From Tubulanus polymorphus (Eukaryota > Nemertea > Palaeonemertea > Tubulaniformes > Tubulanidae): 64,000 bases of DNA. A program made the translations under genes and the position numbers. Numbering within the stretch: the first letter of the stretch is position 1; every line of letters begins with the position of its first letter. Positions 8,853 through 36,672 of the stretch are shown here, in pieces. Location of the stretch: the NCBI RefSeq assembly GCF_964204645.1, contig NC_134032.1, positions 10,596,275 to 10,660,274 on the forward strand, given 5' to 3'. The notes below the pieces were generated by a model. It was not told the DNA's origin. It was given only the letters and a program-made list of their open reading frames with translations, and did not search any database.

Positions 8853-8908
8853 CGTTGGTATAAGCCCATCCGATTATAAAAGCTTACCACCAACGATTAG
8901 GTAACTAA
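8853..8908. repeat. Short dispersed hairpin repeat, copy 2
   Basis: Matches 595-645. Here the arms are better preserved: CGTTGGTATAAGC at the left and GCTTACCACCAACG at the right, giving a ~44-bp hairpin. Confidence 0.55.
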
Positions 8909-9689
8909 CTAGAATGATGATTAATCATGAATACGTGGTATAAGTGGGTTTCCCCAATGACTCAAATAGACCGCTTTCCTCGTGCATGATGTGAGTTAGT
9001 TATCTCGGGGTGCATGAACTGTCCGTGACTAATAAACTAATTTCATTAGTAAATGTTTACGCGGTTTCTATGATATGAAGACATGTATTGGTGTGAATCT
9101 TTAACTGAAGAGCTATCGGTCGGTATAAAATTATAAATTATTCTAGAATATTCCAGAAGGAAAAAAAACAGTCGGCCTATAAATTCGGAGGTAGCTGTTG
9201 GGAATCAAGTAGGCCTAATTTATTTCAATGCCTTATTCAGTTCCTCGACCACTATATTTATTGTTCAGCTGACTACTGGCGTGTATTCAACTCGGCGGTG
9301 GAACCTTTCATAATGTAAACCCATTGAACGATAGAGAGACACAATTGCGGTTTTTCAGAGTTGTTGATATCATTCTGACACGCGCTATTGATTACGTCAC
9401 CGGTTGACCACGGTGTACACAAGCATAGGCCATTCACCTCAGCTTACTCACACTGTGAACATGCTACCGTGGATTCTCCTCCTGGCGATTTTCGCTGCGC
9501 TACCACTCCTGCTCCTGTTCCTGCTTCCTGGGGAACGACGTCTATATGTTTTATGTGTTACTGTTCGTCTCTGTGCTGTCCTGTACTGTTCCGTGTTTAT
9601 TAATCCGTTTTATTTTTCAGGGTCTAATCCGTTTTATTTTTCAGGGCCGATTTCTCTGTCGAATTTCAACGTTTGCTGGAACAAAACTA
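8909..9689. other. Unassigned region with a hydrophobic ORF
   Basis: An ORF at 9404-9904 (+) begins with a strongly hydrophobic stretch (MLPWILLLAIFAALPLLLL), then runs into a decayed reverse-transcriptase fragment. It is probably fortuitous. At 9600-9646 a 22-bp block ending TTTTATTTTTCAGGG, which looks like a splice acceptor, occurs twice in tandem. Confidence 0.3.
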
Positions 9690-9900
9690 ATGCCCGAAAG
9701 CGTCAGCTCTCCGTCGCCGGTCATGTGTCAAGGATGTCAGACAAAGAGTCGGTCAGGAAATGGCTACCCTCTACACGCCCTCATATGGAACACGAAAACC
9801 AGGATGACGAGGCCTCACTCTCCCCACGTATCAACAGAGTGTGTCTGTTGACGTCAATGATGAGCAAGTCAGTCGGATTGCACAGGTTAAAAGTGGAGTG
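9690..9900 (+). pseudogene. Decayed non-LTR reverse transcriptase C-terminal fragment
   Basis: Translation with frame jumps gives AGHVSRMSDKESVRKWL, an R..GHV.RM pattern. In the neighbouring frames come pieces resembling 'LYTPSHGTRKPGRPR' and 'NRVC.VTS'. This layout (GHVxRM, G.R..GRP, then a helical end) is the extreme C-terminus of many RTE/BovB-like LINE polyproteins. Frameshifts separate the pieces, so it is inactive. A second copy in inverted orientation is at 10240-10490. Confidence 0.55.
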
Positions 9901-9922
9901 GTAAAGCTGGACTGTCTACTAG

Positions 9923-10235
9923 TATTCATTGATTCCTTTTCAGGAATTGCTTCGGGTAAAGATTTAGTCTTGTCTTCCTTTGCGTTCTAGCATTCATTGA
10001 TTCCTTTTACGGGATTGCTTCGGGCAGGGATTAAATTCCCTGTCTTCCTTTGCGTGCTAGGATTCATTGATTCACTGCGGGATCGCTTGCATGCCAGCAT
10101 TCATTGATTCCTTTTAAGGGATTGCTTCGGGCAGGGATTAATTTCCCTGCCTTCCTTTGAGTGTTAGTATTCATTGATTCCCAGTGGGTTGCTTCGGACG
10201 GGATTAAGTCTTGCCTTCCTTTGGGTGCTAGTGCG
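9923..10235. repeat. Minisatellite, ~70-bp unit
   Basis: About five units start with ATTCATTGATTCCtttt and carry GGGATTGCTTCGGGCAGGGA and CTTCCTTTGyGTGCTAG. Starts are near 9923, 9991, 10061, 10099 and 10168; the third unit is truncated. It sits exactly between the two inverted reverse-transcriptase fragments. Confidence 0.75.
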
Positions 10236-10239
10236 GGCA

Positions 10240-10490
10240 ATCCAGTTGCGCTGCCCTACTTTTGGCTTGGGCAATTTGATAGGTTTGTCAGTTACTGACG
10301 TCACCCGGCACACCCTGTTGGTAAATGGTGAAAGTAAGGCGTCGTCATCCTGGTTTTCGCGTTCTGTGTGAGGGCGTGTAGAGGGCAGTATATTCCTGGC
10401 TGGCTCTTTGTCTGGTGTTCTCGGCATGTGGCCGACGACGGAGAGCTGTAAAGCTTTCGGACATTAGTTTTGTTCCGTACCAGGTTTTCA
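10240..10490 (-). pseudogene. Decayed non-LTR reverse transcriptase C-terminal fragment, inverted copy
   Basis: On the minus strand the ORF reads TPDKEPARNILPSTRPHTER and continues with TNRVCRVTSVTDKP, clearly homologous to the plus-strand fragment at 9690-9900. The two differ by substitutions and indels. Another frame holds CPLHALTQNAKTRM. No intact domain remains. Confidence 0.55.
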
Positions 10491-10518
10491 TCGCTCTTCT
10501 CTTTTTTTTTCATTTCAG

Positions 10519-10823
10519 GACTCCCAAGATGAAGAAGATGCTGAAGGCGACTACAGAAGATGGCGAAAAAAGAACACTGAACTCAGCAATATTGAAAGTT
10601 AAGTTGATTTACACATGTAAATTACGACGTATGATACAGAAAGGATTGTGTAACTACAGAATATCGTTCTTTTACTCATTTCAAGTTAATCCAGAAAGGC
10701 CCATTTAAAATCTGCCCACCAGAAGTGCCCACAAAAGACTCCACGTTGAATGAACCAAACGTCGAAAGTCCTGCCGCAACCAAACCTGGCAGTCTCATCC
10801 TGCATGGCAACAGGAATACATAA
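10519..10823 (+). other. Exon-like open segments of unknown protein
   Basis: A good polypyrimidine tract plus CAG precedes 10519. The segment 10519-10597 is open and charged (DSQDEEDAEGDYRRWRKKN). A second open segment at about 10685-10823 reads KGPFKICPPEVPTKDS and ends in TAA. The donor after 10597 would be weak (GTTAAG), and the phases of the obvious junction do not join the two frames, so they may be a broken gene or chance. The function is not recognised. Confidence 0.25.
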
Positions 10824-10944
10824 AGCTAAGTTGATTTTTCATATCTGGGGTAGAATGCATAGGCACTGGAGAGGAAAGAGACGCTGGTCAAGCTCACCAT
10901 CTCCGCACTACTTTATTGAAGCTCTGTGGCCGGTAGTAAATTGA

Positions 10945-13967
<3,023 letters not shown>

Positions 13968-14344
13968 ACTATATATATATGAATTGACACATTAATTATG
14001 ATCACTGATATTCGAAAGGATTTTCTGCTCACAAGATTCTGCTCTTTTTTTCAGCTATACTACTAATCAACTAGTAATAAAATCTACAAAATGATCTTCA
14101 ACCTTGTAATATAGATATTCCAAATCTCGATGTATTAAAATAGGCAGTCAACTTAATTGACCCCAATCAGTCGCTTGCCGGTTCAGTCTGGTCGGAAGAT
14201 TAATTGAATGAACCAGAACTGAATTTCCCAATTATGTGCTCGGATTTAAAGAAAAAGAAATTTATGTAAAATCGACCGCCGATCACACAACTATATCTGT
14301 ACTTCGATTTCCGATTTTGAAAAAAAACTTAAAACTACAACAAA

Positions 14345-14510
14345 ATTTAAAATTAGACAAAATTGCGACCTTGTAAACTTTCGGACTATTTACATGAAAA
14401 AAAAAGACCAAAGAAATGTAAAGTAGACAAAATTATCTTAAACCTTGTAAACTTTCGGACTGTTTACACGAAAAAAAGAGCAATGAAATGTAAAATTAGA
14501 CAACCAACTT
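14345..14510. repeat. Two-copy ~74-bp tandem repeat before the array
   Basis: CCTTGTAAACTTTCGGACT followed by GTTTACA.GAAAAAAA occurs at about 14370 and 14443. It leads directly into the first splice-donor-like site of the array at 14550. Confidence 0.65.
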
Positions 14511-14549
14511 GGGAGACCTCACCGATAATGAACCCGGCAATCACAGAAG
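14500..14549 (+). other. Putative leading exon end of the exon-like array
   Basis: The sequence CCGATAATGAACCCGGCAAT, then CACAGAAG before GTAATA, is homologous to the 3' end of every module exon in the array (GATAACGAACCCAACAATCA, then TAAAAG before GTAACT). It ends at a GT at 14550, but the upstream part is unrelated to the modules. If the array is transcribed, this is the natural first exon. Confidence 0.35.
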
Positions 14550-17500
14550 GTAATATTTCGAATTATTGCAATAAGTTCTGAATGAAATATTTTGTCATTA
14601 CAGGATATCTATTTTTGATCATTGCAGCTAAATTTCAACTATGAGAAAAAACCCAGCTTGAAAACAACTACTCGCCCAAAATGGACCAACTTGAACAGCG
14701 CACAGATGGGCCAACAGAATTGAACTCATTAACGCACAAACTTTAGATGATCCACGCCGATAACGAACCAAGCAATCATAAAAGGTAACTTGATATACAT
14801 GAAATTATTACGATTACTTCTTATTGAAATATTTTGTCATTAAAGGGAATCTTCTTTTGATCATTAAAGCTAAATTTCAACTATGCGAAAAAACCCAGTT
14901 TGAGAACAACTACTCATCCAAAATCGGCCAACTTGAACAGTGCACAGATGAGGCCAACAGAATCGAACTCATTAACGCACAAACTTTAGATGATCCACGC
15001 CGATAACGAACCAAGCAATGATAAAAGGTAATTTATTATACATGAAATTATTACGATTACTTCTTATTGAAATATTTTGTCATTAAAGGGAATCTTCTTT
15101 TGATCATTAAAGCTAAATTTCAACTATGCGAAAAAACCAAGTTTGAGAACAACTACTCGACAAAAATCGACCAACTTGAACGGCGCACAGCCAACTAGGA
15201 TCGAACTCATTACCAATCAACTAATAAGATAATCGCCGATAATGAAACCAGTCATCATAAAAGGTAACTTGATATACATGGAATTATTACGATTAATTCT
15301 TATTGAAATATTTTGTCATTAAAGGATATCTTCTTTTAATCATTGCAGCTAAATTTCAACTATGAGAAAAAACCCAACTTGAGAACAACTACTCGCCCAA
15401 AATCGACCAATTTGAACAGCGCACAGATGAGGCCAACAGAATCGAACTCATTTACCAACCAACTAATAAGATAATTGCCGATAACAAACCCAACAATCAT
15501 AAAAGGTAACTTGATATACATGAAATTATTACGATTAATTCTTATTGAAATATTTTGTCATTAATGGATATCTTCTTTTAATCATTGCAGCTAAATTTCA
15601 ACTATGTGAAAAAACCCAGTTTGAGAACAACTACTCGTCAAAAATCGACCGACTTGAACGGCGCACAGCCAACTAGGATCGAACTCATTAACCAATCAAC
15701 TAATAAGATAATCGCCGATAATGAAACCAGCCATCATAAAAGGTAACTTGATATACATGAAATTATTACGATTAATTCTCATTGAAATATTTGGTCATTA
15801 CAGGATATCTTCTTTTCATCATTGCAGCTAAATTTCAACTATGCAAAGAAACCCAGCTTGAGATCAACTACTCGTCCAAAATCGGCAAACTTGAACAGCG
15901 CACAGATGAGGCCAACAGAATTGAACTCATTAACGCACAAACTTTAGATGATCCCCGCCGATAACGAACCAAGCAATCATAAAAGGTAACTTGATATACA
16001 TGAAATTATTACGATTAATTCTTATTGAGATATTTTGTCATTAAAGCATATCTTCTTTTGATCATTAAAGCCAAATGTCAACTATGCGAAAAAACCCAAC
16101 TTGAGAACAACTACTCGTCAAAAAACCAACCAACTTGAACAGCACACAGCCAACTAGGATCGAACTCATTAACCAATCAACTAATAAGATAATCGCCGAT
16201 AATGAAACCAGTAATCATAAAAGGTTACTTGACATACATGGAATTATTACGATTAATTCTTATTGAAATCTTTTGTCATTAAAGGATATCTTCTTTTAAT
16301 CATTGCAGCTAAATTTCAACTATGCGAAAAAACCCAGTTTGAGAACAACTACTCGTAAAAAATTGACCAACTTGAACGGCGCACAGCCAACTAGGATCGA
16401 ACTCATTACCAATCAACTAATAAGATAATCGCCGATAATGAAACCAGCCATCATAAAAGGTAACTTGATATACATGGAATTATTATGATTAATTCTTATT
16501 GAAATATTTTGTCATTAAAGGATATCTTCTTTTAATCATTGCAGCTAAATTTCAACTATGCAAAGAAACCCAGCTTGAGATCAACTACTCGTCCAAAATC
16601 GGCCAACTTGAACAGCGCACAGATGAGGCCAACAGAATTGAACTCATTAACGCACAAACTTTAGATGATCCCCGCCGATAACGAACCAAGCAATCATAAA
16701 AGGTAACTTGATATACATGAAATTATTAAGATTAATTCTTATTGAGATATTTTGTCATCCAAGCATATCTTCTTTTGATCATTAAAGCCAAATGTCAACT
16801 ATGCGAAAAAACCCAGTTTGAGAACAACTACTCGTCAAAAAACCGACCAACTTGAACGGCACACAGCCAACTAGGATCGAACTCATTAACCAATCAACTA
16901 ATAAGATAATCGCCGATAATGAAACCAGCAATCATAAAAGGTAACATGATATACATGGAATTATTACGATTAATTCTTATTGAAATATTTTGTCATTAAA
17001 GGATATCTTCTTTTGATCATTGCAGCTAAATTTCAACAATGAGAAAAAACCCAGTTTGAGAACAACTACTCGTCCAAAATCGACCAACTTGAACAGCGTA
17101 CAGATGAGGCCAACAGAATTGAACTCATTAACCCACCAACTTTAGATGATCCACACCGATAACGAACCAAGCAATCATGATAGGTTACTTGATATACATG
17201 AAATAATTACGATTAATTCTTATTGAAATATTTTGTCATTACAGGATATCTTCTTTTGATCATTGCAGCTAAATTTCAACTATGAGAAAAAACCCAGTTT
17301 GAGAACAACTACTCGTTAAAAATCGACCAACTTGAACGGCGCACAACCAACTAGGATCGAACTCATTACCAATCAACTAATAAGATAATCGCCGATAACG
17401 AAACCAGCAATCATAAAAGGTAACTTGATATACATGAAATTATTACCATTAATTCTTATTGAAATATTTGGTCATTACAGGATATCCTCTTTTAATCATT

Positions 17501-20500
17501 GCAGCTAAATTTCAACTATAAGAAGAAATCCAGCTTGAGATCAGCTTCTCGTCCGAAAAACGAACAACTGGTACAGCAAACAGATGAGGCCAACAGAATC
17601 GAACTCATTTACCAATCAACTAATAAGATAATCGCCGATAATGAAACCAGCAATCATAAAAGGTAACATGATATACATGGAATTATTACGATTAATTCTT
17701 ATTGAAATATTTTGTCATTAAAGGATATCTTCTTTTAATCATTGCAGCTAAATTTCAACTATGCGAAAAAACCCAGTTTGAGAACAACTACTCGTCAAAA
17801 ATCGACCAACTTGAACAGCGCACAGATCAACCACTCGTCTAAAATCGACCAACTTGAACAGCGTACAGATGAGGCCAACAGAATTGAACTCATTAACCCA
17901 CCAACTTTAGATGATCCACACCGATAACGAACCAAGCAATCATAATAGGTTACTTGATATACATGAAATAATTACGATTAATTCGTATTGAAATATTTTG
18001 TCATTACAGGATATCTTCTTTTGATCATTGCAGCTAAATTTCAACTATGAGAAAAAACCCAGTTTGAGATCAACTACTCGTCAAAAATCGACCAACTTGA
18101 ACGGCGCACAGCCAACTAGGATCGAACTCACTAACCAAGCAACTAAAAAGATAATCGCCGATAACGAACCCAGCAATCATAAAAGGTATCTTGATATACA
18201 TAAAATCATTATGATTAATTCGTATTGAAATATTTTGTCATTACAGGATATCTTCTTTTGATCATTGCAGCTAAATTTCAACTATGAGAAAAAACCCAGT
18301 TTGAGAACAACTACTCGTAAAAAATTGACCAACTTGAACGGCGCACAGCCAACTAGGATCGAACTCATTACCAATCAACTAATAAGATAATCGCCGCTAA
18401 TGAAACCAGTCATCATAAAAGGTAACTTGATATACATGGAATTATTATGATTTATTCTTATTGAAATATTTTGTCATTAAAGGATATCTTCTTTTAATCA
18501 TTGCAGCTAAATTTCAACTATGAGAAAAAACCCAACTTGGGAACAACTACTCCCCCAAAATTGAACAATTTGAACAGTGCACAGATGAGGCCAACAGAAT
18601 CGAACTCATTTACCAAACAACTAATAAGATAATTGCCGATAACGAACCCAACAATCATAAAAGGTAACTTGATATACATGAAATTATTAAGATTAATTCT
18701 TATTGAAATATTTTGTCATTAAAGGATATCTTCTTTTAATCATTGCAGCTAAATTTCAACTATGCGAAAAAACCCAGTTTGAGAACAACTACTCGTAAAA
18801 AATTGACCAACTTGAACGGCGCACAGCCAACTAGGATCGAACTCATTACCAATCAACTAATAAGATAATCGCCGATAATGAAACCAGCCATCATAAAAGG
18901 TAACTTGATATACATGGAATTATTATGATTAATTCTTATTGAAATATTTTGTCATTAAAGGATATCTTCTTTTAATCATTGCAGCTAAATTTCAACTATG
19001 CAAAGAAACCCAGCTTGAGATCAACTACTCGTCCAAAATCGGCCAACTTGAACAGCGCACAGATGAGGCCAACAGAATTGAACTCATTAACGCACAAACT
19101 TTAGATGATCCCCGCCGATAATGAACCAAGCAATCATAAAAGGTAACTTGATATACATGAAATTATTAAGATTAATTCTTATTGAGATATTTTGTCATTC
19201 AAGCATATCTTCTTTTGATCATTAAAGCCAAATGTCAACTATGCGAAAAAACCCAGTTTGAGAACAACTACTCGTCAAAAAACCGACCAACTTGAACGGC
19301 ACACAGCCAACTAGGATCGAACTCATTAACCAATCAACTAATAAAATAATCGCCGATAATGAAACCAGCAATCATAAAAGGTAACATGATATACATGGAA
19401 TTATTACGATTAATTCTTATTGAAATATTTTGTCATTAAAGGATATCTTCTTTTGATCATTGCAGCTAAATTTCAACAATGAGAAAAAACCCAGTTTGAG
19501 AACAACTACTCGTCCAAAATCGACCAACTTGAACAGCGTACAGATGAGGCCAACAGAATTGAACTCATTAACCCACCAACTTTAGATGATCCACACCGAT
19601 AACGAACCAAGCAATCATGATAGGTTACTTGATATACATGAAATAATTACGATTAATTCTTATTGAAATATTTTGTCATTACAGGATATCTTCTTTTGAT
19701 CATTGCAGCTAAATTTCAACTATGAGAAAAAACCCAGTTTGAGAACAACTACTCGTTAAAAATCGACCAACTTGAACGGCGCACAACCAACTAGGATCGA
19801 ACTCATTACCAATCAACTAATAAGATAATCGCCGATAACGAAACCAGCAATCATAAAAGGTAACTTGATATACATGAAATTATTACCATTAATTCTTATT
19901 GAAATATTTGGTCATTACAGGATATCCTCTTTCAATCATTGCAGCTAAATTTCAACTATAAGAAGAAATCCAGCTTGAGATCAGCTTCTCGTCCGAAAAA
20001 CGAACAACTGGTACAGCAAACAGATGAGGCCAACAGAATCGAACTCATTTACCAATCAACTAATAAGATAATCGCCGATAATGAAACCAGCAATCATAAA
20101 AGGTAACATGATATACATGGAATTATTACGATTAATTCTTATTGAAATATTTTGTCATTAAAGGATATCTTCTTTTAATCATTGCAGCTAAATTTCAACT
20201 ATGCGAAAAAACCCAGTTTGAGAACAACTACTCGTCAAAAATCGACCAACTTGAACAGCGCACAGATCAACCACTCGTCTAAAATCGACCAACTTGAACA
20301 GCGTACAGATGAGGCCAACAGAATTGAACTCATTAACCCACCAACTTTAGATGATCCACACCGATAACGAACCAAGCAATCATAATAGGTTACTTGATAT
20401 ACATGAAATAATTACGATTAATTCGTATTGAAATATTTTGTCATTACAGGATATCTTCTTTTGATCATTGCAGCTAAATTTCAACTATGAGAAAAAACCC

Positions 20501-23500
20501 AGTTTGAGAACAACTACTCGTCAAAAATCGACCAACTTGAACGGCGCACAGCCAACTAGGATCGAACTCACTAACCAAGCAACTAAAAAGATAATCGCTG
20601 ATAACGAACCCAGCAATCATAAAAGGTATCTTGATATACATAAAATCATTATGATTAATTCGTATTGAAATATTTTGTCATTACAGGATATCTTCTTTTG
20701 ATCATTGCAGCTAAATTTCAACTATGAGAAAAAACCCAGTTTGAGAACAACTACTCGTAAAAAATTGACCAACTTGAACGGCGCACAGCCAACTAGGATC
20801 GAACTCATTACCAATCAACTAATAAGATAATCGCCGCTAATGAAACCAGCCATCATAAAAGGTAACTTGATATACATGGAATTATTATGATTTATTCTTA
20901 TTGAAATATTTTGTCATTAAAGGATATCTTCTTTTAATCATTGCAGCTAAATTTCAACTATGAGAAAAAACCCAACTTGGGAACAACTACTCGCCCAAAA
21001 TTGAACAATTTGAACAGTGCACAGATGAGGCCAACAGAATCGAACTCATTTACCAAACAACTAATAAGATAATTGCCGATAACGAACCCAACAATCATAA
21101 AAGGTAACTTGATATACATGGAATTATTATGATTAATTCTTATTGAAATATTTTGTCATTAAAGGATATCTTCTTTTAATCATTGCAGCTAAATTTCAAC
21201 TATGCAAAGAAACCCAGCTTGAGATCAACTACTCGTCCAAAATCGGCCAACTTGAACAGCGCACAGATGAGGCCAACAGAATTGAACTCATTAACGCACA
21301 AACTTTAGATGATCCCCGCCGATAACGAACCAAGCAATCATAAAAGGTAACTTGATATACATGAAATTATTAAGATTAATTCTTATTGAGATATTTTGTC
21401 ATTCAAGCATATCTTCTTTTGATCATTAAAGCCAAATGTCAACTATGCGAAAAAACCCAGTTTGAGAACAACTACTCGTCAAAAAACCGACCAACTTGAA
21501 CGGCACACAGCCAACTAGGATCGAACTCATTAACCAATCAACTAATAAGATAATCGCCGATAATGAAACCAGCAATCATAAAAGGTAACATGATATACAT
21601 GGAATTATTACGATTAATTCTTATTGAAATATTTTGTCATTAAAGGATATCTTCTTTTGATCATTGCAGCTAAATTTCAACAATGAGAAAAAACCCAGTT
21701 TGAGAACAACTACTCGTCCAAAATCGACCAACTTGAACAGTGTACAGATGAGGCCAACAGAATTGAACTCATTAACCCACCAACTTTAGATGATCCACAC
21801 CGATAACGAACCAAGCAATCATGATAGGTTACTTGATATACATGAAATAATTACGATTAATTCTTATTGAAATATTTTGTCATTACAGGATATCTTCTTT
21901 TGATCATTGCAGCTAAATTTCAACTATGAGAAAAAACCCAGTTTGAGAACAACTACTCGTTAAAAATCGACCAACTTGAACGGCGCACAACCAACTAGGA
22001 TCGAACTCATTACCAATCAACTAATAAGATAATCGCCGATAACGAAACCAGCAATCATAAAAGGTAACTTGATATACATGAAATTATTACCATTAATTCT
22101 TATTGAAATATTTGGTCATTACAGGATATCCTCTTTTAATCATTGCAGCTAAATTTCAACTATAGGAAGAAATCCAGCTTGAGATCAGCTTCTCGTCCGA
22201 AAAACGAACAACTGGTACAGCAAACAGATGAGGCCAACAGAATCGAACTCATTTACCAATCAACTAATAAGATAATCGCCGATAATGAAACCAGCAATCA
22301 TAAAAGGTAACATGATATACATGGAATTATTACGATTAATTCTTATTGAAATATTTTGTCATTAAAGGATATCTTCTTTTGATCATTGCAGCTAAATTTC
22401 AACTATGAGATAAAACCCAGTTTGAGAACAACTACTTGTCAAAAATCGACCAACTTGAACGGCGCACAGCCAACTAGGATCGAACTCACTAACCAAGCAA
22501 CTAAAAAGATAATCGCCGATAACGAACCCAGCAATCATAAAAGGTATCTTGATATACATAAAATCATTATGATTAATTCGTATTGAAATATTTTGTCATT
22601 ACAGGATATCTTCTTTTGATCATTGCAGCTAAATTTCAACTATGAGAAAAAACCCAGTTTGAGAACAACTACTCGTAAAAAATTGACCAACTTGAACGGC
22701 GCACAGCCAACTAGGATCGAACTCATTACCAATCAACTAATAAGATAATCGCCGCTAATGAAACCAGCCATCATAAAAGGTAACTTGATATACATGGAAT
22801 TATTATGATTTATTCTTATTGAAATATTTTGTCATTAAAGGATATCTTCTTTTAATCATTGCAGCTAAATTTCAACTATGAGAAAAAACCCAACTTGGGA
22901 ACAACTACTCGCCCAAAATTGAACAATTTGAACAGTGCACAGATGAGGCCAACAGAATCGAACTCATTTACCAAACAACTAATAAGATAATTGCCGATAA
23001 CGAACCCAACAATCATAAAAGGTAACTTGATATACATGAAATTATTAAGATTAATTCTTATTGAAATATTTTGTCATTAAAGGATATCTTCTTTTAATCA
23101 TTGCAGCTAAATTTCAACTATGCGAAAAAACCCAGTTTGAGAACAACTACTCGTCAAAAATCGACCAACTTGAACAGCGCACAGATCAACCACTCGTCTA
23201 AAATCGACCAACTTGAACAGCGTACAGATGAGGCCAACAGAATTGAACTCATTAACCCACCAACTTTAGATGATCCACACCGATAACGAATCAAGCAATC
23301 ATAATAGGTTACTTGATATACATGAAATAATTACGATTAATTCGTATTGAAATATTTTGTCATTACAGGATATCTTCTTTTGATCATTGCAGCTAAATTT
23401 CAACTATGAGAAAAAACCCAGTTTGAGAACAACTACTCGTCAAAAATCGACCAACTTGAACGGCGCACAGCCAACTAGGATCGAACTCACTAACCAAGCA

Positions 23501-26500
23501 ACTAAAAAGATAATCGCCGATAACGAACCCAGCAATCATAAAAGGTATCTTGATATACATGAAATCATTATGATTAATTCTTATTGAAATATTTTGTCAT
23601 TAAAGGATATCTTCGTTTAATCATTGCAGCTTAATTTGAACTATGCGAAAAAACCCAGTTTGAGAACAACTACTCGTCAAAAATCGACCAACTTGAACGG
23701 CGCACAGCCAACTAGGATCGTACTCATTAACCAATCAACTAATAAGATAATCGCCGATAATGAAACCAGCAATCATAAAAGGTAACTTGACATACATGGA
23801 ATTATTACGATTAATTCTTATTGAAATATTTTGTCATTAAAGGATATCTTCTTTTAATCATTGCAGCTAAATTTCACCTATGCGAAAAAACCCAGTTTGA
23901 GAACAACTACTCGTCAAAAATCGACCAACTTGAACAGCGCACAGATCAACTACTCGTCCAAAATCGACCAACTTGAACAGCGTACAGATGAGGCCAACAG
24001 AATTGAACTCATTAACCCACCAACTTTAGATGATCCACACCGATAACGAACCAAGCAATCATAATAGGTTACTTGATATACATGAAATAATTACGATTAA
24101 TTCTTATTGAAATATTTTGTCATTACAGGATATCTTCTTTTGATCATTGCAGCTAAATTTCAACTATGAGAAAAAACCCAGTTTGAGAACAACTACTCGT
24201 AAAAAATTGACCAACTTGAACGGCGCACAGCCAACTAGGATCGAACTCACTAACCAAGCAACTAAAAAGATAATCGCCGATAACGAACCCAGCAATCATA
24301 AAAGGTATCTTGATATACATGAAATCATTATGATTAATTCTTATTGAAATATTTTGTCATTAAAAGGATATCTTCTTTTAATCATTGCAGCTAAATTTGA
24401 ACTATGCGAATAAACCCAGTTTGAGAACAACTACTCGTCAAAAATCGAACAATTTGAACAGTGCACAGATCAGGCCAACAGAATCGAACTCATTTACCAA
24501 CCAACTAATAAGATAATTGCCGATAACGAACCCAACAATCATAAAAGGTAACTTGATATACATGAAATTATTATGATTAATTCTTATTGAAATATTTTGT
24601 CATTAATGGATATCTTCTTTTAATCATTGCAGCTAAATTTGAACTATGCGAAAAAACCCAGTTTGAGAACAACTACTCGTAAAAAATTGACCAACTTGAA
24701 CGGCGCACAGCCAACTAGGATCGAACTCATTACCAATCAACTAATAAGATAATCGCCGATAATGAAACCAGCCATCATAAAAGGTAACTTGATATACATG
24801 GAATTATTATGATTAATTCTTATTGAAATATTTTTTCATTAAAGGATATCTTCTTTTAATCATTGCAGCTAAATTTCAACTATGAGAAAAAACCCAACTT
24901 GAGAACAACTACTCGCCCAAAATCGAACAATTTGAACAGTGCACAGATGAGGCCAACAGAATCGAACTCATTTACCAAACAACTAATAAGATAATTGCCG
25001 ATAACGAACCCAACAATCATAAAAGGTAACTTGATATACATGAAATTATTAAGATTAATTCTTATTGAAATATTTTGTCATTAAAGGATATCTTCTTTTA
25101 ATCATTGCAGCTAAATTTCAACAATGAGAAAAAACCCAGTTTGAGAACAACTACTCGTCCAAAATCGACCAACTTGAACAGCGTACAGATGAGGCCAACA
25201 GAATTGAACTCATTAACCCACCAACTTTAGATGATCCACACTGATAACGAACCAAGCAATCATAATAGGTTACTTGATATACATGAAATAATTACGATTA
25301 ATTCTTATTGAAATATTTTGTCATTACAGGATATCTTCTTTTGATCATTGCAGCTAAATTTCAACTATGAGAAAAAACCCAGTTTGAGAACAACTACTAG
25401 TAAAAAATTGACCAACTTGAATGGCGCACAGCCAACTAGGATCGAACTCACTAACCTAGCAACTAAAAAGATAATCGCCGATAACGACCCAGCAATCATA
25501 AAAGGTATCTTGATATACATGAAATCATTATGATTAATTCTTATTGAAATATTTTGTCATTAAAGGATATCTTCTTTTAATCATTGCAGCTAAATTTGAA
25601 CTATGCGAAAAAACCCAGTTTGAGAACAACTACTCGTCAAAAATCGAACAATTTGAACAGTGCACAGATCAGGCCAACAGAATCGAACTCATTTACCAAC
25701 CAACTAATAAGATAATTGCCGATAACGAACCCAACAATCATAAAAGGTAACTTGATATACATGAAATTATTACGATTAATTCTTATTGAAATATTTTGTC
25801 ATTAATGGATATCTTCTTTTAATCATTGCAGCTAAATTTGAACTATGCGAAAAAACCCAGTTTGAGAACAACTACTCGTAAAAAATTGACCAACTTGAAC
25901 GGCGCACAGCCAACTAGGATCGAACTCATTACCAATCAACTAATAAGATAATCGCCGATAATGAAACCAGCCATCATAAAAGGTAACTTGATATACATGG
26001 AATTATTATGATTAATTCTTATTGAAATATTTTGTCATTAAAGGATATCTTCTTTTAATCATTGCAGCTAAATTTCAACTATGAGAAAAAACCCAACTTG
26101 AGAACAACTACTCGCCCAAAATCGAACAATTTGAACAGTGCACAGATGAGGCCAACAGAATCGAACTCATTTACCAAACAACTAATAAGATAATTGCCGA
26201 TAACGAACCCAACAATCATAAAAGGTAACTTGATATACATGAAATTATTAAGATTAATTCTTATTGAAATATTTTGTCATTAAAGGATATCTTCTTTTAA
26301 TCATTGCAGCTAAATTTCAACTATGCGAAAAAACCCAGTTTGAGAACAACTACTCGTCAAAAATCGACCAACTTGAACAGCGCACAGATCAACCACTCGT
26401 CTAAAATCGACCAACTTGAACAGCATACAGATGAGGCCAACAGAATTGAACTCATTAACCCACCAACTTTAGATGATCCACACCGATAACGAATCAAGCA

Positions 26501-29500
26501 ATCATAATAGGTTACTTGATATACATGAAATAATTACGATTAATTCGTATTGAAATATTTTGTCATTACAGGATATCTTCTTTTGATCATTGCAGCTAAA
26601 TTTCAACTATGAGAAAAAACCCAGTTTGAGAACAACTACTCGTAAAAAATTGACCAACTTGAACGGCGCACAGCCAACTAGGATCGAACTCATTACCAAT
26701 CAACTAATAAGATAATCGCCGCTAATGAAACCAGCCATCATAAAAGGTAACTTGATATACATGGAATTATTATGATTTATTCTTATTGAAATATTTTGTC
26801 ATTAAAGGATATCTTCTTTTAATCATTGCAGCTAAATTTCAACTATGAGAAAAAACCCAACTTGGGAACAACTACTCGCCCAAAATCGAACAATTTGAAC
26901 AGTGCACAGATGAGGCCAACAGAATCGAACTCATTTACCAAACAACTAATAAGATAATTGCCGATAACGAACCCAACAATCATAAAAGGTAACTTGATAT
27001 ACATGAAATTATTACGATTAATTCTTATTGAAATATTTTGTCATGAAAGGATATGTTCTTTTAATCATTGCAGCTAAATTTCAACTATGCGAAAAAACCC
27101 AGTTTGAGAACAACTACTCGTCAAAAATCGACCAACTTGAACAGCGCACAGATCAACCACTCGTCTAAAATCGACCAACTTGAACAGCGTACAGATGAGG
27201 CCAACAGAATTGAACTCATTAACCCACCAACTTTAGATGATCCACACCGATAACGAACCAAGCAATCATAATAGGTTACTTGATATACATGAAATAATTA
27301 CGATTAATTCGTATTGAAATATTTTGTCATTACAGGATATCTTCTTTTGATCATTGCAGCTAAATTTCAACTATGAGAAAAAACCCAGTTTGAGAACAAC
27401 TACTCGTCAAAAATCGACCAACTTGAACGGCGCACAGCCAACTAGGATCGAACTCACTAACCAAGCAACTAAAAAGATAATCGCCGATAACGAACCCAGC
27501 AATCATAAAAGGTATCTTGATATACATGAAATCATTATGATTAATTCTTATTGAAATATTTTGTCATTAAAGGATATCTTCGTTTAATCATTGCAGCTTA
27601 ATTTGAACTATGCGAAAAAACCCAGTTTGAGAACAACTACTCGTCAAAAATCGACCAACTTGAACGGCGCACAGCCAACTAGGATCGTACTCATTAACCA
27701 ATCAACTAATAAGATAATCGCCGATAATGAAACCAGCAATCATAAAAGGTAACTTGACATACATGGAATTATTACGATTAATTCTTATTGAAATATTTTG
27801 TCATTAAAGGATATCTTCTTTTAATCATTGCAGCTAAATTTCAACTATGCGAAAAAACCCAGTTTGAGAACAACTACTCGTCAAAAATCGACCAACTTAA
27901 ACAGCGCACAGATCAACTACTCGTCCAAAATCGACCAACTTGAACAGCGTACAGATGAGGCCAACAGAATTGAACTCATTAACCCACCAACTTTAGATGA
28001 TCCACACCGATAACGAACCAAGCAATCATAATAGGTTACTTGATATACATGAAATAATTACGATTAATTCTTATTGAAATATTTTGTCATTACAGGATAT
28101 CTTCTTTTGATCATTGCAGCTAAATTTCAACTATGAGAAAAAACCCAGTTTGAGAACAACTACTCGTAAAAAATTGACCAACTTGAACGGCGCACAGCCA
28201 ACTAGGATCGAACTCACTAACCAAGCAACTAAAAAGATAATCGCCGATAACGAACCCAGCAATCATAAAAGGTATCTTGATATACATGAAATCATTATGA
28301 TTAATTCTTATTGAAATATTTTGTCATTGAAGGATATCTTCTTTTAATCATTGCAGCTAAATTTGAACTATGCGAAAAAACCCAGTTTGAGAACAACTAC
28401 TCGTCAAAAATCGAACAATTTGAACAGTGCACAGATCAGACCAACAGAATCGAACTCATTTACCAACCAACTAATAAGATAATTGCCGATAACGAACCCA
28501 ACAATCATAAAAGGTAACTTGATATACATGAAATTATTACGATTAATTCTTATTGAAATATTTTGTCATTAATGGATATCTTCTTTTAATCATTGCAGCT
28601 AAATTTGAACTATGCGAAAAAACCCAGTTTGAGAACAACTACTCGTAAAAAATTGACCAACTTGAACGGCGCACAGCCAACTAGGATCGAACTCATTACC
28701 AATCAACTAATAAGATAATCGCCGATAATGAAACCAGCCATCATAAAAGGTAACTTGATATACATGGAATTATTATGATTAATTCTTATTGAAATATTTT
28801 GTCATTAAAGGATATCTTCTTTTAATCATTGCAGCTAAATTTCAACTATGAGAAAAAACCCAACCTGAGAACAACTACTCGTCAAAAATTGACCAACTTG
28901 AACGGCGCACAGCCAACTAGGATCGAACTCATTACCAATCAACTAATAAGATAATCGCCGATAATGAAACCAGCCATCATAAAAGGTAACTTGATATACA
29001 TGGAATTATTATGATTAATTCTTATTGAAATATTTTGTCATTAAAGGATATCTTCTTTTTATCATTGCAGCTAAATTTCAACTATGCGAAAAAACCCAGT
29101 TTGAGAACAACTACTCGCCCAAAATCGACCAACTTGAACAGCGCACAGATGGGGCCAACAGAATCGAACTCATTAACGCATTAACTTTAGATGATCCACG
29201 CTGATAACGAACCAAGCAATCATAAAAGGTAACTTGATATACATGGAATTATTTCGATTAACTCTTATTGAAATATTTTGTCATTACAGGATATCTTCTT
29301 TTAATCGTTGCAGCTAAATTTCTACTATGAGAAAAAACCAAGTTTGAGAACAACAACTCGTCCAAAATCGACCAACTTGAACGGCGCACAGCCAACAAGG
29401 ATCGAACTTATTAACCAATCAACTAATAAGATAATCGCCGATAACAAACCCAGCAATCATAAAAGGTAACTTGATATACATGAAATTATTACCATTAATT

Positions 29501-30514
29501 CTTATTGAAATATTAGGTCATTACAGGATATCTTCTCTTAATCATTGCAGCTTAATTTCAACTATGAGAAAAAAACCCAGCTGGAGAACAACTACTCGCC
29601 CAAAATCACCCAACTTGAACCGCGCACAGATGAGGCCAACAGAATCGAACTCATTTACCAACCAACTAATAAGATAATTGCCAATAACGAACCCAACAAT
29701 CAAAAAGGTAACTTGATATACATGAAATTATTACGATTAATTCTTATTGAAATATTTTGTCATTACAGAATATCTTCTTTTAATCATTGCAGCTAAATTG
29801 CAACTATGCGAAAAAGCCCAGTTTGAGAACAACTACTCGTTAAAAATCGACCAACTTGAACGGCGCACAACCAACTAGGATCGAACTCATTACCAATCAA
29901 CTAATAAGATAATCGCCGATAACGAAACCAGCAATCATAAAAGGTAACTTGATATACATGAAATTATTACCATTAATTCTTATTGAAATATTTGGTCATT
30001 ACAGGATATCCTCTTTTAATCATTGCAGCTAAATTTCAACTATAAGAAGAAATCCAGCTTGAGATCAGCTTCTCGTCCGAAAAACGAACAACTGGTACAG
30101 CAAACAGATGAGGCCAACAGAATCGAACTCATTTACCAATCAACTAATAAGATAATCGCCGATAATGAAACCAGCAATCATAAAAGGTAACATGATATAC
30201 ATGGAATTATTACGATTAATTCTTATTGAAATATTTTGTCATTAAAGGATATCTTCTTTTGATCATTGCAGCTAAATTTCAACAATGAGAAAAAACCCAG
30301 TTTGAGAACAACTACTCGTCCAAAATCGACCAACTTGAACAGTGTACAGATGAGCCTAATAGAATCGAACTCATTAACCCACCAACTTTAGATGATCCAC
30401 ACCAATAACGAACCAAGCAATCATAAAAGGTTACTTGATATACATGAAATTATTACGATTAATTCTTATTGAAATATTTTGTCATTACAGGATATCTTCT
30501 TTTAATCGTTGCAG
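14550..30514 (+). repeat. Array of ~65 exon/intron-like modules (~237-242 bp)
   Basis: Each unit consists of an 85-bp intron-like spacer (GTAACTTGATATACATGAAA to CTTCTTTTAATCATTGCAG) and a 151-158-bp exon-like block starting CTAAATTTCAACTATG and ending CAATCATAAAAG. The spacer begins with GT in every unit inspected (GTAACTT, GTAACAT, GTTACTT, GTATCTT) and ends in AG after a pyrimidine-rich tract (usually TTGCAG, sometimes TTAAAG). Several block types are interspersed: one with ATGAGGCCAACAGAAT, one with a 5-bp shorter GCCAACTAGGAT, one ending ACTTTAGATGATCC, one with an extra ~43 bp, and one strongly diverged. In one frame a block reads KFQLCEKTQFENNYSSKI and then a glutamate/glutamine-rich helix. 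Block lengths are not multiples of 3, and joining one block to the next gives AGC TAA at the junction, so a continuous chained protein is not supported. Copies at 16499 and 18939 (and linked units) repeat at 2,440 bp. Confidence 0.85.
25590..25746 (+). other. Representative module exon, open in one frame (157 bp)
   Basis: The acceptor is ATCATTGCAG ending at 25589; the donor GTAACTTG starts at 25747. From the third base the block is open for 51 codons: KFELCEKTQFENNYSSKIEQ, then a polar helix-like stretch, then NKIIADNEPNNHK. Short heptad-like spacing of hydrophobic residues suggests helix or coiled-coil potential. A close copy lies in the unit at 28311-28517. No family is recognised. Expression is unproven. 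Confidence 0.35.
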
Positions 30515-30930
30515 CTAAATATCAACTATGAGAAAAAACCCAGCTTGAGATCAACTACTCATCAGAAAATCTACAAGTAGATGAATACTGATTGACCCAT
30601 TTGCTGATGAAAACTGCAGAAGCCCAGATTAGAAGTTGAGGAGCCAGCAACAGATTAATCACTCAACGATTCTTCTACAAATGGTGGTTGATTTCTATAA
30701 AATATTTTATCAGGAGCAGCAGAGACTATAGTGAAACTTATAAACACTGATTTGAGCGACAAAACTAATGGATTATCTCATAAACACTGATTCAGGATAA
30801 GCACTGTTTTAAAAGCAGCAAAGACAACAGTGTATCTTATTAGGAGCAGCATAAACAATAGCGCATCTTATAAACACTGAGATCCAGGAGCGGCAAAAAC
30901 AATAGCGGATTTCTGCCGTAAAGAATTGAT
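30515..30930 (+). other. Putative terminal exon and small repeats closing the array
   Basis: The last module begins normally after GTTGCAG at 30514, but after about 65 bp (near 30575) it changes to unique sequence with no donor at the expected place. It then runs into four imperfect short repeats (GGAGCAGC.., ACAATAGyG, CTTATAAACACTGA) between about 30710 and 30910. It could be the last exon of a transcript spanning the array. Confidence 0.3.
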
Positions 30931-31181
30931 TTTTTTACTTATCACCCTTTTTCAAACCAGTCTGATATAGTGTTTTAAAGGAAATTATTTTATAATGTTT
31001 AATGCAATGTTAGAGTCTAATCAAAGCTAAGCTCCATTAATTCACGATGTTGGTATTCGATCCTTGGATGATAGAGAAGTCAAGTTAGGTTAGTCACTAG
31101 GGGTAAATGGTCGCGTCGAGCGCCTTGTTTTGGCTGCAGGTCTGTTGAGTTAACTCCTAAACTGAGATATAGTTTCAACAT
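30931..31181. other. Unassigned spacer
   Basis: No gene, repeat or regulatory signal recognised. Confidence 0.5.
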
Positions 31182-33276
31182 GATATTGTGAGTTTAATCT
31201 TTAAACTTTACCATAGTTAAACATAGTCAACTATGGCTATTTGTCCGTGTAGGTATCACATAGTTAGGAAACATAGAACATAACGTTAGACCAGTGTTGA
31301 TGTACAAATATTAAGTATTTGCTGAATTGTAGATGTATTAATTTGATGGATTTATATTTTCGAAGGCCCATGTAACTGATTTCACAATTGAATCGTATAT
31401 GTCGATTTTCACATTTATTTTTAACTTTGAGCCTCCATTAATCTGTTTGATGATCATAGCTACTTATTTGAAATCAAAAGCTTTATTTGAAAGGAGACCA
31501 TTATTTACATTTGAGAGGTAAAGCTAGGAATAACAAAGTTATAGCTAGGACTAATTTTGAACGTTTTAAACATTGTTTATAGCTGTTTGAACTTTTTTTA
31601 TTGTAATGGGTAAATCCATATCACGAGATGGCTCTCATGAATAATCACTTAGCTTCAAATTGGGTGTATAATGATTATTAAGGAGTGGCAGTGAATCGGT
31701 AGTGCTTTTCTAAAATGGGCCCAGAAACTTTACAGTGAAAAAATGCCTGCAGTTGTAAATAGAGGAGTATAAATAATACGCAATACAAACTACGAGTAAA
31801 TAAATTAATAAAAAAATAAATTAGAAAAAACCAATAAATAATAAGTAGTAAATAATACAAAATACAAGTACATACATAAATAGATAATATTAAAAAATAG
31901 ATAAAAATCATAAACAACAATACAAACAAACAACAAATTAATATTCTATTTACATGAAAAGGCATTTTTTCAAATATCTATCAACAAGGTTCTTCATTTA
32001 TCGAACAACCTTCCCTAAGTATAGCAAAAACCCTAGATCTTTTCTGTTGTTATTCAAAGCATTCTATCGGACTCAGTTATTATAATGAACAAAACAAATA
32101 ACCATAAACCTTAACTAAATCGAACACACTTAAGAAAATAACTGATATGATAGAATGCTTTGAATAACTGTGATGAAAGATCGACCATCCTATGAACTAG
32201 CTGCGCTCAATCACTGCTGTGACTGTTGATATTGTGAGTTTAATCTTTAAACTTTACCATAGTTAAACATAGTCAACTATGGCTATTTGTCCGTGTAGGT
32301 ATCACATAGTTAGGAAACATAGAACATAACGTTAGACCAGTGTTGATGTACAAATATTAAGTATTTGCTGAATTGTAGATGTATTAATTTGATGGATTTA
32401 TATTTTCGAAGGCCCATGTAACTGATTTCACAATTGAATCGTATATGTCGATTTTCACATTTATTTTTAACTTTGAGCCTCCATTAATCTGTTTGATGAT
32501 CATAGCTACTTATTTGAAATCAAAAGCTTTATTTGAAAGGAGACCATTATTTACATTTGAGAGGTAAAGCTAGGAATAACAAAGTTATAGCTAGGACTAA
32601 TTTTGAACGTTTTAAACATTGTTTATAGCTGTTTGAACTTTTTTTATTGTAATGGGTAAATCCATATCACGAGATGGCTCTCATGAATAATCACTTAGCT
32701 TCAAATTGGGTGTATAATGATTATTAAGGAGTGGCAGTGAATCGGTAGTGCTTTTCTAAAATGGGCCCAGAAACTTTACAGTGAAAAAATGCCTGCAGTT
32801 GTAAATAGAGGAGTATAAATAATACGCAATACAAACTACGAGTAAATAAATTAATAAAAAAATAAATTAGAAAAAACCAATAAATAATAAGTAGTAAATA
32901 ATACAAAATACAAGTACATACATAAATAGATAATATTAAAAAATAGATAAAAATCATAAACAACAATACAAACAAACAACAAATTAATATTCTATTTACA
33001 TGAAAAGGCATTTTTTCAAATATCTATCAACAAGGTTCTTCATTTATCGAACAACCTTCCCTAAGTATAGCAAAAACCCTAGATCTTTTCTGTTGTTATT
33101 CAAAGCATTCTATCGGACTCAGTTATTATAATGAACAAAACAAATAACCATAAACCTTAACTAAATCGAACACACTTAAGAAAATAACTGATATGATAGA
33201 ATGCTTTGAATAACTGTGATGAAAGATCGACCATCCTATGAACTAGCTGCGCTCAATCACTGCTGTGACTGTTGAT
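31182..33276. repeat. Perfect 1,046-bp tandem duplication
   Basis: Unit 1 is 31182-32227 and unit 2 is 32228-33273, with the junction GAT repeated at the end. I saw no differences between the copies, including an identical 95-codon AT-rich minus-strand ORF in each that I regard as non-coding. Each unit contains an inverted repeat of about 31 bp (TTATTCAAAGCATTCTATC and its complement) around a ~55-bp loop at about 32044-32170 and 33090-33216. This is a very recent duplication or an assembly duplicate. Confidence 0.9.
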
Positions 33277-33572
33277 TGTTATACGGGGGTAGACACTTAC
33301 TATCTAAAATCTGGTACATACATTTTTAGAAAGAATGTAAAACAGCTATAAACTTAAGTTATTGATGTTATTGATTAGTTACCGATTGTATGATTATGTT
33401 GATGTTTTTGAAGCTGCCAGAAAGAAACATCAGAATACTTAGTATTTAATGCCAAGGTGCTTGGACATCTTTAAGTCAGGGCAAAATTCTAGAAAGTAAT
33501 GATTAGTTGATACTTAGATTTCCAGAGTGAATCTGTATGTTCCATCTCTAGTTTAAATGCTCTATGTTGGAG

Positions 33573-33608
33573 CATAGAACTCAAATCAAATTGATTTGAG
33601 GTCTATGG
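33573..33608. mobile_element. Mini-hairpin insertion, copy H2
   Basis: A 36-bp hairpin, arms CATAGAACTCAAATCAA and TTGATTTGAGGTCTATG, flanked on both sides by TTGGAG (33567-33572 and 33609-33614). The paralogous repeat near 35117 reads TATGTTGGAGACTT with no insertion. Confidence 0.65.
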
Positions 33609-34703
33609 TTGGAGACTGTTATTGTAACACATAGCCGAACACATGTTTGGAAATTAGGAACTTGCATGATGATTCCTCGTTTAAGATATAATTGTTGTGT
33701 GAATAAAACGATGTTCATTTTCATCATTCATGTTGAAACTTTTAAGTTGTTAATTTCTATAGCAACAATTCCACTGTGGTGGTTCATAAATTACTGATAG
33801 AATAGAAGGAGCAGTTTCTTGATAGGCTATCTCGAGGATACAGTGCTAATTGGTCAATTGTCCTAGCTTAGTTTAACCGCATCTGTGTGGGGCCTGTAAT
33901 ATCTGGACAAGAAGAATTTCTGATCTTAATATAAAGTTGTATTTATATCTACTATCAAGTTGAATAATACAAATTAAGAAGTTGCCGTAGCTTCGTCAGT
34001 CAAACCATATTTATGAAGATACTCGATTTATCTTAGATCATCACGAAGAAAAACCTTTATAATAGTTTGCAGGGTTTGATCTAAGGATTAAAATGCCAGT
34101 TGACCTTGGGGCAAGCATATGTGATATCACTTGCCCCCCTCAAAAATCAACTTGCCCTATACATGAGTAGTCCAATTGAGACACAATCATCCCTTGCATC
34201 GAGTGGGATAAAAGCTTTGAGATATAGAATTACACAAGCCCGGTGGACGAGTGATTGTGATAAACTACATTTCCTAATGAAAATATACTTGTCCCGGGAA
34301 ATTGGACTAGTGCTTAAATCAGACCCTGCTTTGTTTCTAATGTAACATTTGTGAAATAAGCTAGTTGATAATTAAGGAAATCTCTCAGACGAGGAAATTT
34401 TTGGCAATGTTTTTAGTTTTCTTGTAATAACTAAGATTAATTAGTTTACCTAACGCTTTCCAGAGTGAGTGAATTTGTAGGTTTTATGTTGAACTGTTTT
34501 CTAAATAACTCATTTAACGGGCTATAATTGTTGTGTAAGAATAAAATGATATACATGTTTCGGCATTCACACTGTGCTGCTCATCAATGGTTCATAAAAT
34601 ACTATTTTCATTAAGGCCCTCATGGAATAGAGTCGCAAAATAGAGGAGCAGTCTCTTGATAAATGAGGATATATGAACAGTATTAATCAGTAGATTATGC
34701 TAG

Positions 34704-34723
34704 CTATGGACTCTAAAACCATT
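34704..34723. mobile_element. Half mini-hairpin, truncated copy
   Basis: CTATGGACTCTAAAACCAT matches one arm and loop of hairpin H1 but the second arm is missing. The paralogous position near 33863 lacks it. Confidence 0.4.
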
Positions 34724-35739
34724 GTTTAACAATTTATATATGGGTTCTGAAATATCTGCACAAGAAGCACCTCAAAAAGTTAGTTATTGAATCTTAACTT
34801 AATTGTAGCAAAGCCATTAATTATTAGTAATTGCCCTAGCTCTATTCAAATTGGCAGTTGAACAATACTCGATTTATATAGTCTTGCTGAATGCATAGAA
34901 GAGAATACCTCCAAAATACTTTGCATTAAATGTAACATTTGAGAAAATTGCCAATTTGATAATGTCTTGAAACCTCAAGGCAAAGGTGGCAAAACTAGCT
35001 ATCTTGTAAAATAATGTTAATGAAAATTAAATCAAAGACTGTTTAGTTAAACTTATCTTAAGCTTTCCTGATTGAATTTGTGGTTTTATCTCCGGTTACA
35101 ATGTTTTTATGTTGGAGACTTTTTTGAAATACAGGTCACGTTTTTGTAAATGACTGAGGCACTTCCTCCAGTAGATGTACCTGTCATTTAGGTATAATTG
35201 TTTTTGTGGAGATAAAATGACATGTTCGTGTCAATTGTTCATTAAACATTGATTTATTAAGGTCCTATCGAGTTGAGCTTTTTCTTGATAAATGAGATGT
35301 CCTCAATCGATGTCATTTGAAAAGTTGACATGATAGATTCATATTTCATGAAATATAACAAAGTGTCGGTTATATTGACCTCATGAATTGTCAAATTCAT
35401 AATCTCAGACTAGTCCAATTTTCGGTTTTTTATGGATCAAAGTCTATAATTCTTAGTGTATTTTTGTTATTTTCCTATTGATGCAAATTGTATAAATCAG
35501 CTGTAGTGGAAATGTATCGTAGATAAAGAAAGACTTCTAAATACCTTACGTGTAACTAGTACAATTTCATACATAGTAATATAAATAAAATTACTATTAA
35601 AATTTGAGAAAATAAGCTAAAAGTTAATAATATGATATGTGAAAATAAAATGATGTAAGAATGTAAATCAGATTGATTACTTAATCCTACGCTTTCCAGA
35701 GTATTTGGCCAGGTTTATCTCTGGTTTTAGTGCGGGGAG

Positions 35740-35768
35740 CCATGGACTCACGGTTTAAGAGTCCATGG
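35740..35768. mobile_element. Mini-hairpin insertion, copy H3
   Basis: Arms CCATGGACTC and GAGTCCATGG around a 9-base loop. It is the first of three hairpins lying almost end to end. Confidence 0.6.
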
Positions 35769-35775
35769 TTGTCGG

Positions 35776-35805
35776 CCATAGACATTTCTGGTTTAGAGTC
35801 TATGG
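35776..35805. mobile_element. Mini-hairpin insertion, copy H4
   Basis: Arms CCATAGAC and GTCTATGG around a 14-base loop; followed by TTGGA before the next hairpin. Confidence 0.6.
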
Positions 35806-35810
35806 TTGGA

Positions 35811-35855
35811 CCATGGGCGTATATAAGCTCTCGTTTATAGTTTATACGCCTATGG
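35811..35855. mobile_element. Mini-hairpin insertion, copy H5
   Basis: Arms CCATGGGCGTATA and TATACGCCTATGG, 13 bp with one mismatch; flanked by GTTGGA on both sides (35806-35810 region and about 35858-35863). Confidence 0.6.
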
Positions 35856-36321
35856 TGGTTGGACTAGTTGTTTTTGAAAGTCCGTGTTTGAGGAACTTAC
35901 ATTAAAATTCCTCGAGCACAAACCTGGCATTTTGTATAATTGTTGTATATATGAGAATAAATATGATTGATTTTGAAATTTGTCATTCGTTTAGTTAAGC
36001 AACAAGTGTTACTAAAATGAAGCACCACTAAAAACGAAAACTATATGCACCCGAGAAAACCGACCAGGCAATTTACGTTTCCGTCAGAGGTGGCACAGAG
36101 CGCCCCAAGTGATGATTTCGAGTATCTTCGGACTTCTTTTTAGTCATTCATAGTTCTAATACCCGAAAGTGCATAGGCCTTCGTTTTAGTAGCACATAGT
36201 TTTTAGTAACACCCCCATTGCACTGCCCTGCTATAAATTAACTGCTCATTTTCACGAACCCAGGGCCACCTTCTGAGTTAGTCGACTATAGTCGAACTAA
36301 ACGAAACCGAATGTCCATTAG

Positions 36322-36569
36322 CAGGGCCGTCGCGGCCCACTTTTTTGCTTAACAAAATTTGTTCAAAAGCACGCTGTACCGCGTAGCAGCTCGTCGTTCT
36401 CTGTACTAAGTGGTTGGCTCACGACTTCTCATGCTTCTGTGAATGAGACCGTGAAATGGCCCCAAAACATATCTCCGGCGATTGAATTTTCAAATTTTTC
36501 AAGGGGAGGGCCCCAAACCACCCTTCAGAAATAAGCCTCGCCACTGAAAAATTCCCTCCGACGGCTCTG
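36322..36569. mobile_element. MITE with CAGrGCCGTCG ends
   Basis: A 248-bp element: left end CAGGGCCGTCGCGGCC, right end in reverse complement CAGAGCCGTCGGAGGG. ATTAG lies immediately outside both ends, a likely target duplication. hAT-like ends; no ORF. Confidence 0.6.
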
Positions 36570-36672
36570 ATTAGTCATTCGGTTATTAGTTCGATCCGAC
36601 CACTAGTTGACTAGATACGAAAACCGAATTTGGTCCTGGCAGTTGAGTCGGTTGCTGTTCCCAGGAAACCTT

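Follow-up and report, generated by a model that had tools for sequence, protein, structure and literature searches.

A dispersed repeat of Tubulanus polymorphus carrying a tandem array of putative non-coding exon–intron modules

Tandem amplification inside dispersed sequences is known from genes as well as from mobile elements. The NBPF/Olduvai genes likewise lie in dispersed segmental duplications, those of human, and have exons amplified in tandem; the NBPF exons are protein-coding, unlike the blocks of the array described here in the palaeonemertean Tubulanus polymorphus. In the foldback transposon Tetris of Drosophila virilis, the internal tandem repeats of a dispersed element are reportedly a source of satellite DNA. 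Tetris is a DNA transposon, whereas neither a terminal structure nor a transposase was found in the partly covered copies of the repeat studied here. The nearest parallels appear to be the long non-coding RNA Firre, for exons made from local repeats, and the satellite-bearing Helentrons of the oyster, for architecture. Firre is a non-coding RNA, as is proposed for our array, in which many exons are composed of repeated sequence: the exonic local repeat RRD is reported to overlap 7 of the 13 human exons and 11 of the 23 mouse exons (PMC4820808). Firre is one X-linked locus with spaced repeats and a proven RNA, whereas the array reported here, with its predicted RNA, has a whole exon–intron module in direct tandem, more than 60 times, on a dispersed repeat. 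The Cg_HINE Helentrons of the Pacific oyster contain satellite arrays with monomers of ~140–180 bp, reportedly 29 at most, and resemble our repeat in that variable-length tandem arrays lie dispersed between common flanks, with flanks and array always co-oriented (PMC7492417). Cg_HINE has subterminal inverted repeats and a 3′ palindrome, while in the partly covered copies of the present repeat, which is about 28 kb or more in length and has host-gene exons in some copies, no common ends were found. As no end structure was found in these partly covered copies, we do not assign the repeat to the Helentrons. A limited literature search returned no published description that we recognised as this array.

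The window, i.e., the whole stretch of 64,000 nucleotides that was analysed (G000:C8:10596275-10660274), was compared with the genome searched (267.8 Mb, 77 contigs). Tandem Repeats Finder detected periods of 243 and 479 across 14561-30571. An internal anchor was located in 66 copies, from 14582 to 30469, with a spacing of 236-243 bp, except where the 7 units enlarged by 43 bp raise it to 286 bp. The 65 blocks measure 151 bp (16 blocks), 158 bp (15), 157 bp (12), 152 bp (11), 201 bp (7) and 153 bp (4), those of 201 bp being the ones with an internal 43-bp repeat, and 64 of the 66 intron-like segments are 85 bp long, the other two 78 and 86 bp. AG and GT are both present in all 65 aligned window units. 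The first donor GT occupies 14550-14551 and the final acceptor ends at 30514; a second AG sits 24 bp upstream of the acceptor, and the leading segment is related to the 3′ half of the blocks. With 65 tandem units at a mean pairwise difference of ~10%, the array is not a product of chance. The first-pass annotation had described a ~16-kb array of about 65 exon-plus-intron modules, bracketed by a leading segment with a homologous donor; its coordinates, count and indel sizes all hold, and the bracketing donor is confirmed. The features are collected in Table 1.

Table 1. Positions of the features in the window.
Feature	Position	Strand	Basis or remark
PTPLA/HACD-like gene exons	4790-4897, 5390-5509, 6005-6139		
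Window copy of the dispersed repeat, ~28.7 kb including private insertions	7937..36633	+	Homology limits against fetched copies, ~90% identity
Insertion of 845 bp, private to the window copy	8067..8911	.	Absent from five fetched copies covering the site
Leading exon-like segment, 3′ part, up to the first donor	14504..14549	+	Same layout in other copies, such as L025 and L017
Array, 66 intron-like segments alternating with 65 blocks	14550..30514	+	Repeat finder, anchor search, unit alignment
Last exon-like block, continuing into the flank common to other copies	30515..30930	+	Flank homology
Tandem duplication, right side of the repeat	31181..33276	.	Two identical 1050-bp copies (31181-32230, 32227-33276)
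QPRT gene	from 37883		

The array is not a single-copy gene; it belongs to one copy of a dispersed repeat that measures at least about 28 kb. The window repeat sits between a PTPLA/HACD-like gene and the QPRT gene, whose introns mark the sequence as eukaryotic. Its strand is defined as that of the TXNL1 exons (see below) and of the splice-like signals, and its limits are the points where homology to the fetched copies ends, other copies extending further on both sides. At least 78 matches, clustered on contigs C6, C8, C9, C10 and C11, were obtained with a 481-bp array query (8 of 215 candidates scored), at least 63 with the left flank, 14130-14552 (40 of 1254 first-look candidates scored), and at least 42 with the right flank, 30572-31140 (40 of 188 first-look candidates scored). 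With ≤3 mismatches allowed, 620 places match a 24-base pattern that includes the acceptor, vs 1 place for the reversed pattern. The annotation had read the layout as one transcription unit, with a last block running into unique sequence; the array and flank matches contradict a single locus and the uniqueness, and the repeat is much larger than the array (Table 1).

By means of left and right flank matches on the same contig and strand, 11 copies (window included) were paired by hand. Their flank-to-flank distances are about 1.9, 2.8, 3.1, 3.4, 3.6, 3.9, 5.5, 16.0, 19.0, 20.7 and 33.3 kb, and in some copies may include foreign insertions. A dispersed array of variable length between common flanks, which is a feature of the Helitron/Helentron type, is present here. 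Divergence is even along the whole repeat (~90% identity), without exon-like peaks of conservation. The left limits vary among copies, as do the right limits, and the limits continue past each other; no end common to the fetched, partly covered copies was found. Inspection by eye of L009-L038, again with copies partly covered, gave no transposase or Rep/helicase-like ORF of ≥130 aa inside the repeat. Either segmental duplication or the movement of an element with a captured TXNL1 may account for the spread of the repeat. One locus, L025 (G000:C1:23384900-23392000), has one intron and, in place of the 243-bp array, an expansion of another minisatellite of ~45 bp, GGAGCAGCAGAGACAATG.

Several smaller features were recorded along the way. 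The private insertion is flanked by the 10-bp direct repeat GAATGATGAT (8057-8066 and 8912-8921), and its end, 8852-8907, resembles 593-648, beside a 5-phosphatase exon. The 1050-bp duplication looks recent in the window, since L009 has one copy of the segment. An inverted repeat of 181 bp and 79.6% identity is formed by 9678-9856 and 10296-10476, in which the reading RQLSFAGHVSRMSDKESVRK resembles the end of a LINE reverse transcriptase. Six other loci share the ORF at 9461-9901 (MLPWILLLAIF...), which has no Pfam match. At the right end of the repeat, several copies have a ~160-bp palindrome-rich piece (window about 36270-36633), which is a high-copy repeat in its own right (40 of 838 candidates scored). 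A short high-copy insert with the ends CAGGGCCG...CGGCTCTG and ATTAG on both sides occupies 36322-36570; for part of this insert there are many copies, 92-95% identical. Two minus-strand ORFs lie at 36676-37213, a region with about 9 further copies: one contains a coiled-coil-like stretch without Pfam match and the other a PHD/FYVE-like zinc finger below the Pfam cut-offs. They are perhaps a retroelement ORF1. Outside the repeat, the minus strand of L031 (8892-9899) has a 336-aa ORF that resembles a tyrosine recombinase but has no Pfam match.

Some copies carry TXNL1 exons with their introns, left of where the window copy stops, and in the orientation of the array. In a copy on C6 (L063), three pieces match the PITH domain, and for one L063 piece the best match among solved structures is thioredoxin-like protein 1; a similar piece was recognised by eye in a copy on C11 (L062). 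The last TXNL1 exon, following TTTCAG, reads VAGKKGESY or VTGKKGESH and then a stop in L031 and L033, and reads on without a stop there in L049. We take GKKGESH to be the TXNL1 C-terminus. The stretch preceding this last exon was matched at no fewer than 23 places (hand count with a short unrelated repeat excluded; 40 of 342 candidates scored).

The idea that splice columns are more conserved than unit interiors found no support when it was tested on the window units. Of the 242 columns aligned from the window units alone, 113 are invariant. The donor region shows no greater conservation than the remaining intron (p = 0.33), and conservation is slightly higher in the intron than in the block (p = 0.04). 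A unit-profile search of the window and 28 fetched loci, in which three arrays are represented by two loci each, gave 413 hits, 361 of them ungapped. Among the ungapped hits, AG is intact at 361/361 and GT at 344/361. All but one of the 17 GT losses occur in a single array, L013 (G000:C8:246500-256400), where 16 units read GGAAACT and thus carry GA, not GT, at the donor. This shows a change that has spread through one array. The statement of the annotation that the donor GT survives in all variant forms seen holds for the window (65/65 units) and does not extend to L013, which can be regarded as a natural loss-of-donor case within the family.

Mapped on a tree of 301 units, the four splice letters show no changes at A or at either G, and 4 at T; of the 30 G columns, only the 2 splice columns are free of change. 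Comparison with base-matched random columns gave P = 0.001 for four sites and 9e-5 for eight sites. The same test gave P = 1e-5 with the window and L013 left out, P = 0.0008 for the six most divergent loci and P = 0.07 for close loci including L013. The six most divergent loci have no AG/GT mismatches vs a mean of 22.5%. Their variable positions are acceptor −4 (72%) and donor +5 (68%), and in a wider divergent set the donors are often GTAAGT and the acceptors often TTTCAG. Splice sites tolerate variation at positions such as these, and the pattern is the one expected of working introns. In most arrays the majority of the introns measure 85 bp, whereas the blocks vary in length. In L037 (about 7600-7940), it was seen by eye that the last intron holds a ~245-bp insert with its intron-like ends kept and the exon border unmoved, and that it has a stronger donor, GTAAGT, and the acceptor TTTGTTTCAG. 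Across copies, AG and GT behave like splice sites. The exon–intron reading in the first-pass annotation is partly supported: the behaviour of AG and GT across copies speaks for it, the window-only test and the dispersal of the repeat against it.

Over the family's history, the constraint on the splice letters appears well supported; for the present day the support is weaker, because a decoy GT is as intact (282/299) as the splice GT (283/300), rare variants at the four splice letters are weakly depleted (1 vs 6.1 expected, P = 0.04) and L013 persists without GT. In the divergent set, 38 of 226 columns are without mismatch, so the four splice letters are not alone, and the C following AG is also conserved. 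Genome patterns with free dinucleotides retained AG and GT in all of the places listed (100 of 337 and 100 of 301), and control dinucleotides were likewise kept (99/100 and 100/100). A crude splice score of the site pair is equalled by 3% of shuffled units. No closed exon–exon junctions were found in the genome with a pattern that is a poor detector, having 620 places at ≤3 mismatches; among the 100 of these 620 places listed, the 4 with <3 mismatches resemble ordinary acceptors (TTAAAG, TTACAG).

The relationships among units throw light on the growth of the arrays. The nearest relative is within the same array for 208 of 301 units (shuffled mean 31.5). In the window, a unit and its nearest relative usually stand 10 or 16 units from each other and differ by 0.4% in the median, whereas direct neighbours differ by 11.5% on average. 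Hence the arrays seem to grow via duplication of many-unit blocks, separately in each copy, with local homogenisation.

The blocks do not code for a protein. In the three frames, 17, 0 and 2 of the 65 window blocks are open. Block lengths are not uniform modulo three, and joining the blocks gives open stretches of at most 103 aa in the window and at most 111 aa in any one array; an open frame through the repeated exons, as in NBPF, is absent. The annotation had judged a chained protein unlikely, and we concur. Some units read as a coiled-coil-like peptide, e.g., KFQLCEKTQFENNYSSKIGQLEQCTDEANRIELI, which could suggest coding exons of a repetitive coiled-coil-like protein. The peptide has no Pfam match, and the frame, length and Pfam evidence largely refutes this proposal, which we consider very improbable. 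Rfam at gathering thresholds and ARAGORN gave nothing, and the RNA fold of one unit has z = -0.97. The AATAAA sites in the right part of the repeat are not specially conserved. Spaced modules with CTTTCCAG or TTTCCAG and AATAAA downstream were observed at 33490-36000; they are perhaps tandem alternative terminal exons.

Three further readings of the array deserve comparison. The reading as a non-coding exon–intron unit whose long non-coding RNA is spliced today, or was until recently, has in our estimate an even chance of being correct. The array might also consist of fossil introns. In that case a large mobile element or a recurrent segmental duplication would have taken the exon–intron pair away from a once-spliced gene, and the pair would now spread as satellite DNA alone, GT and AG being kept by source-copy constraint and local homogenisation and not by present splicing. 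The ragged ends of copies on many contigs, the even divergence along the repeat, the local turnover of arrays, the weak depletion of rare variants and the persistence of 27 exon-sized blocks in L013 without GT all agree with this scenario. Nevertheless, an AG intact in every ungapped hit and the lack of any AG/GT mismatch in the six most divergent loci exceed the expectation for relics, and we regard fossil introns as the main rival, though less likely than not. The likeness to splice sites could be accidental if TTGCAGC and AAAAGGTAA surround another motif, such as a protein-binding, recombination or replication site. The invariance of further columns and of the C after AG would fit such a motif, as would the AG 24 bp upstream, which a functional acceptor would not normally have so near; two separated sites at the right spacing, which vary where splice sites permit and towards a better consensus in older loci, argue against it, and we find it improbable.

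Returning to the spliced non-coding unit, the sequence patterns suggest transcription of the + strand, splicing, and a constraint acting through splicing. The array would be the amplified middle of a non-coding multi-exon transcription unit, located in some copies downstream of TXNL1 exons and presumably spread with them as a large repeat. One unit would comprise a small non-coding exon of about 150 nt and an 85-nt intron, and the predicted order is the leading exon ending at 14549, the 65 tandem exons and the last exon from 30515. This module was probably amplified by multi-unit block duplication through unequal exchange, separately in each copy. If the unit is transcribed, the equivalent introns would be removed and a long repetitive RNA with a variable number of exons would be produced. 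We put forward, tentatively, the more extended proposition of a family of non-coding genes, whose body would be a satellite of complete exon–intron modules with spliceability kept by selection despite sequence drift, and which would travel on a large repeat, in some copies with TXNL1 exons, with from one or two to probably more than 100 modules per copy.

Satellite DNA is generally regarded as non-genic. Should these arrays prove to be spliced, one RNA molecule could contain tens of near-identical exons, the number of which changes by unequal exchange. The arrays would then offer a natural test of splicing among dozens of equivalent sites and would show how a repeat can spread yet keep its introns. 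If they are fossils, the family shows an exon–intron pair turning into a satellite.
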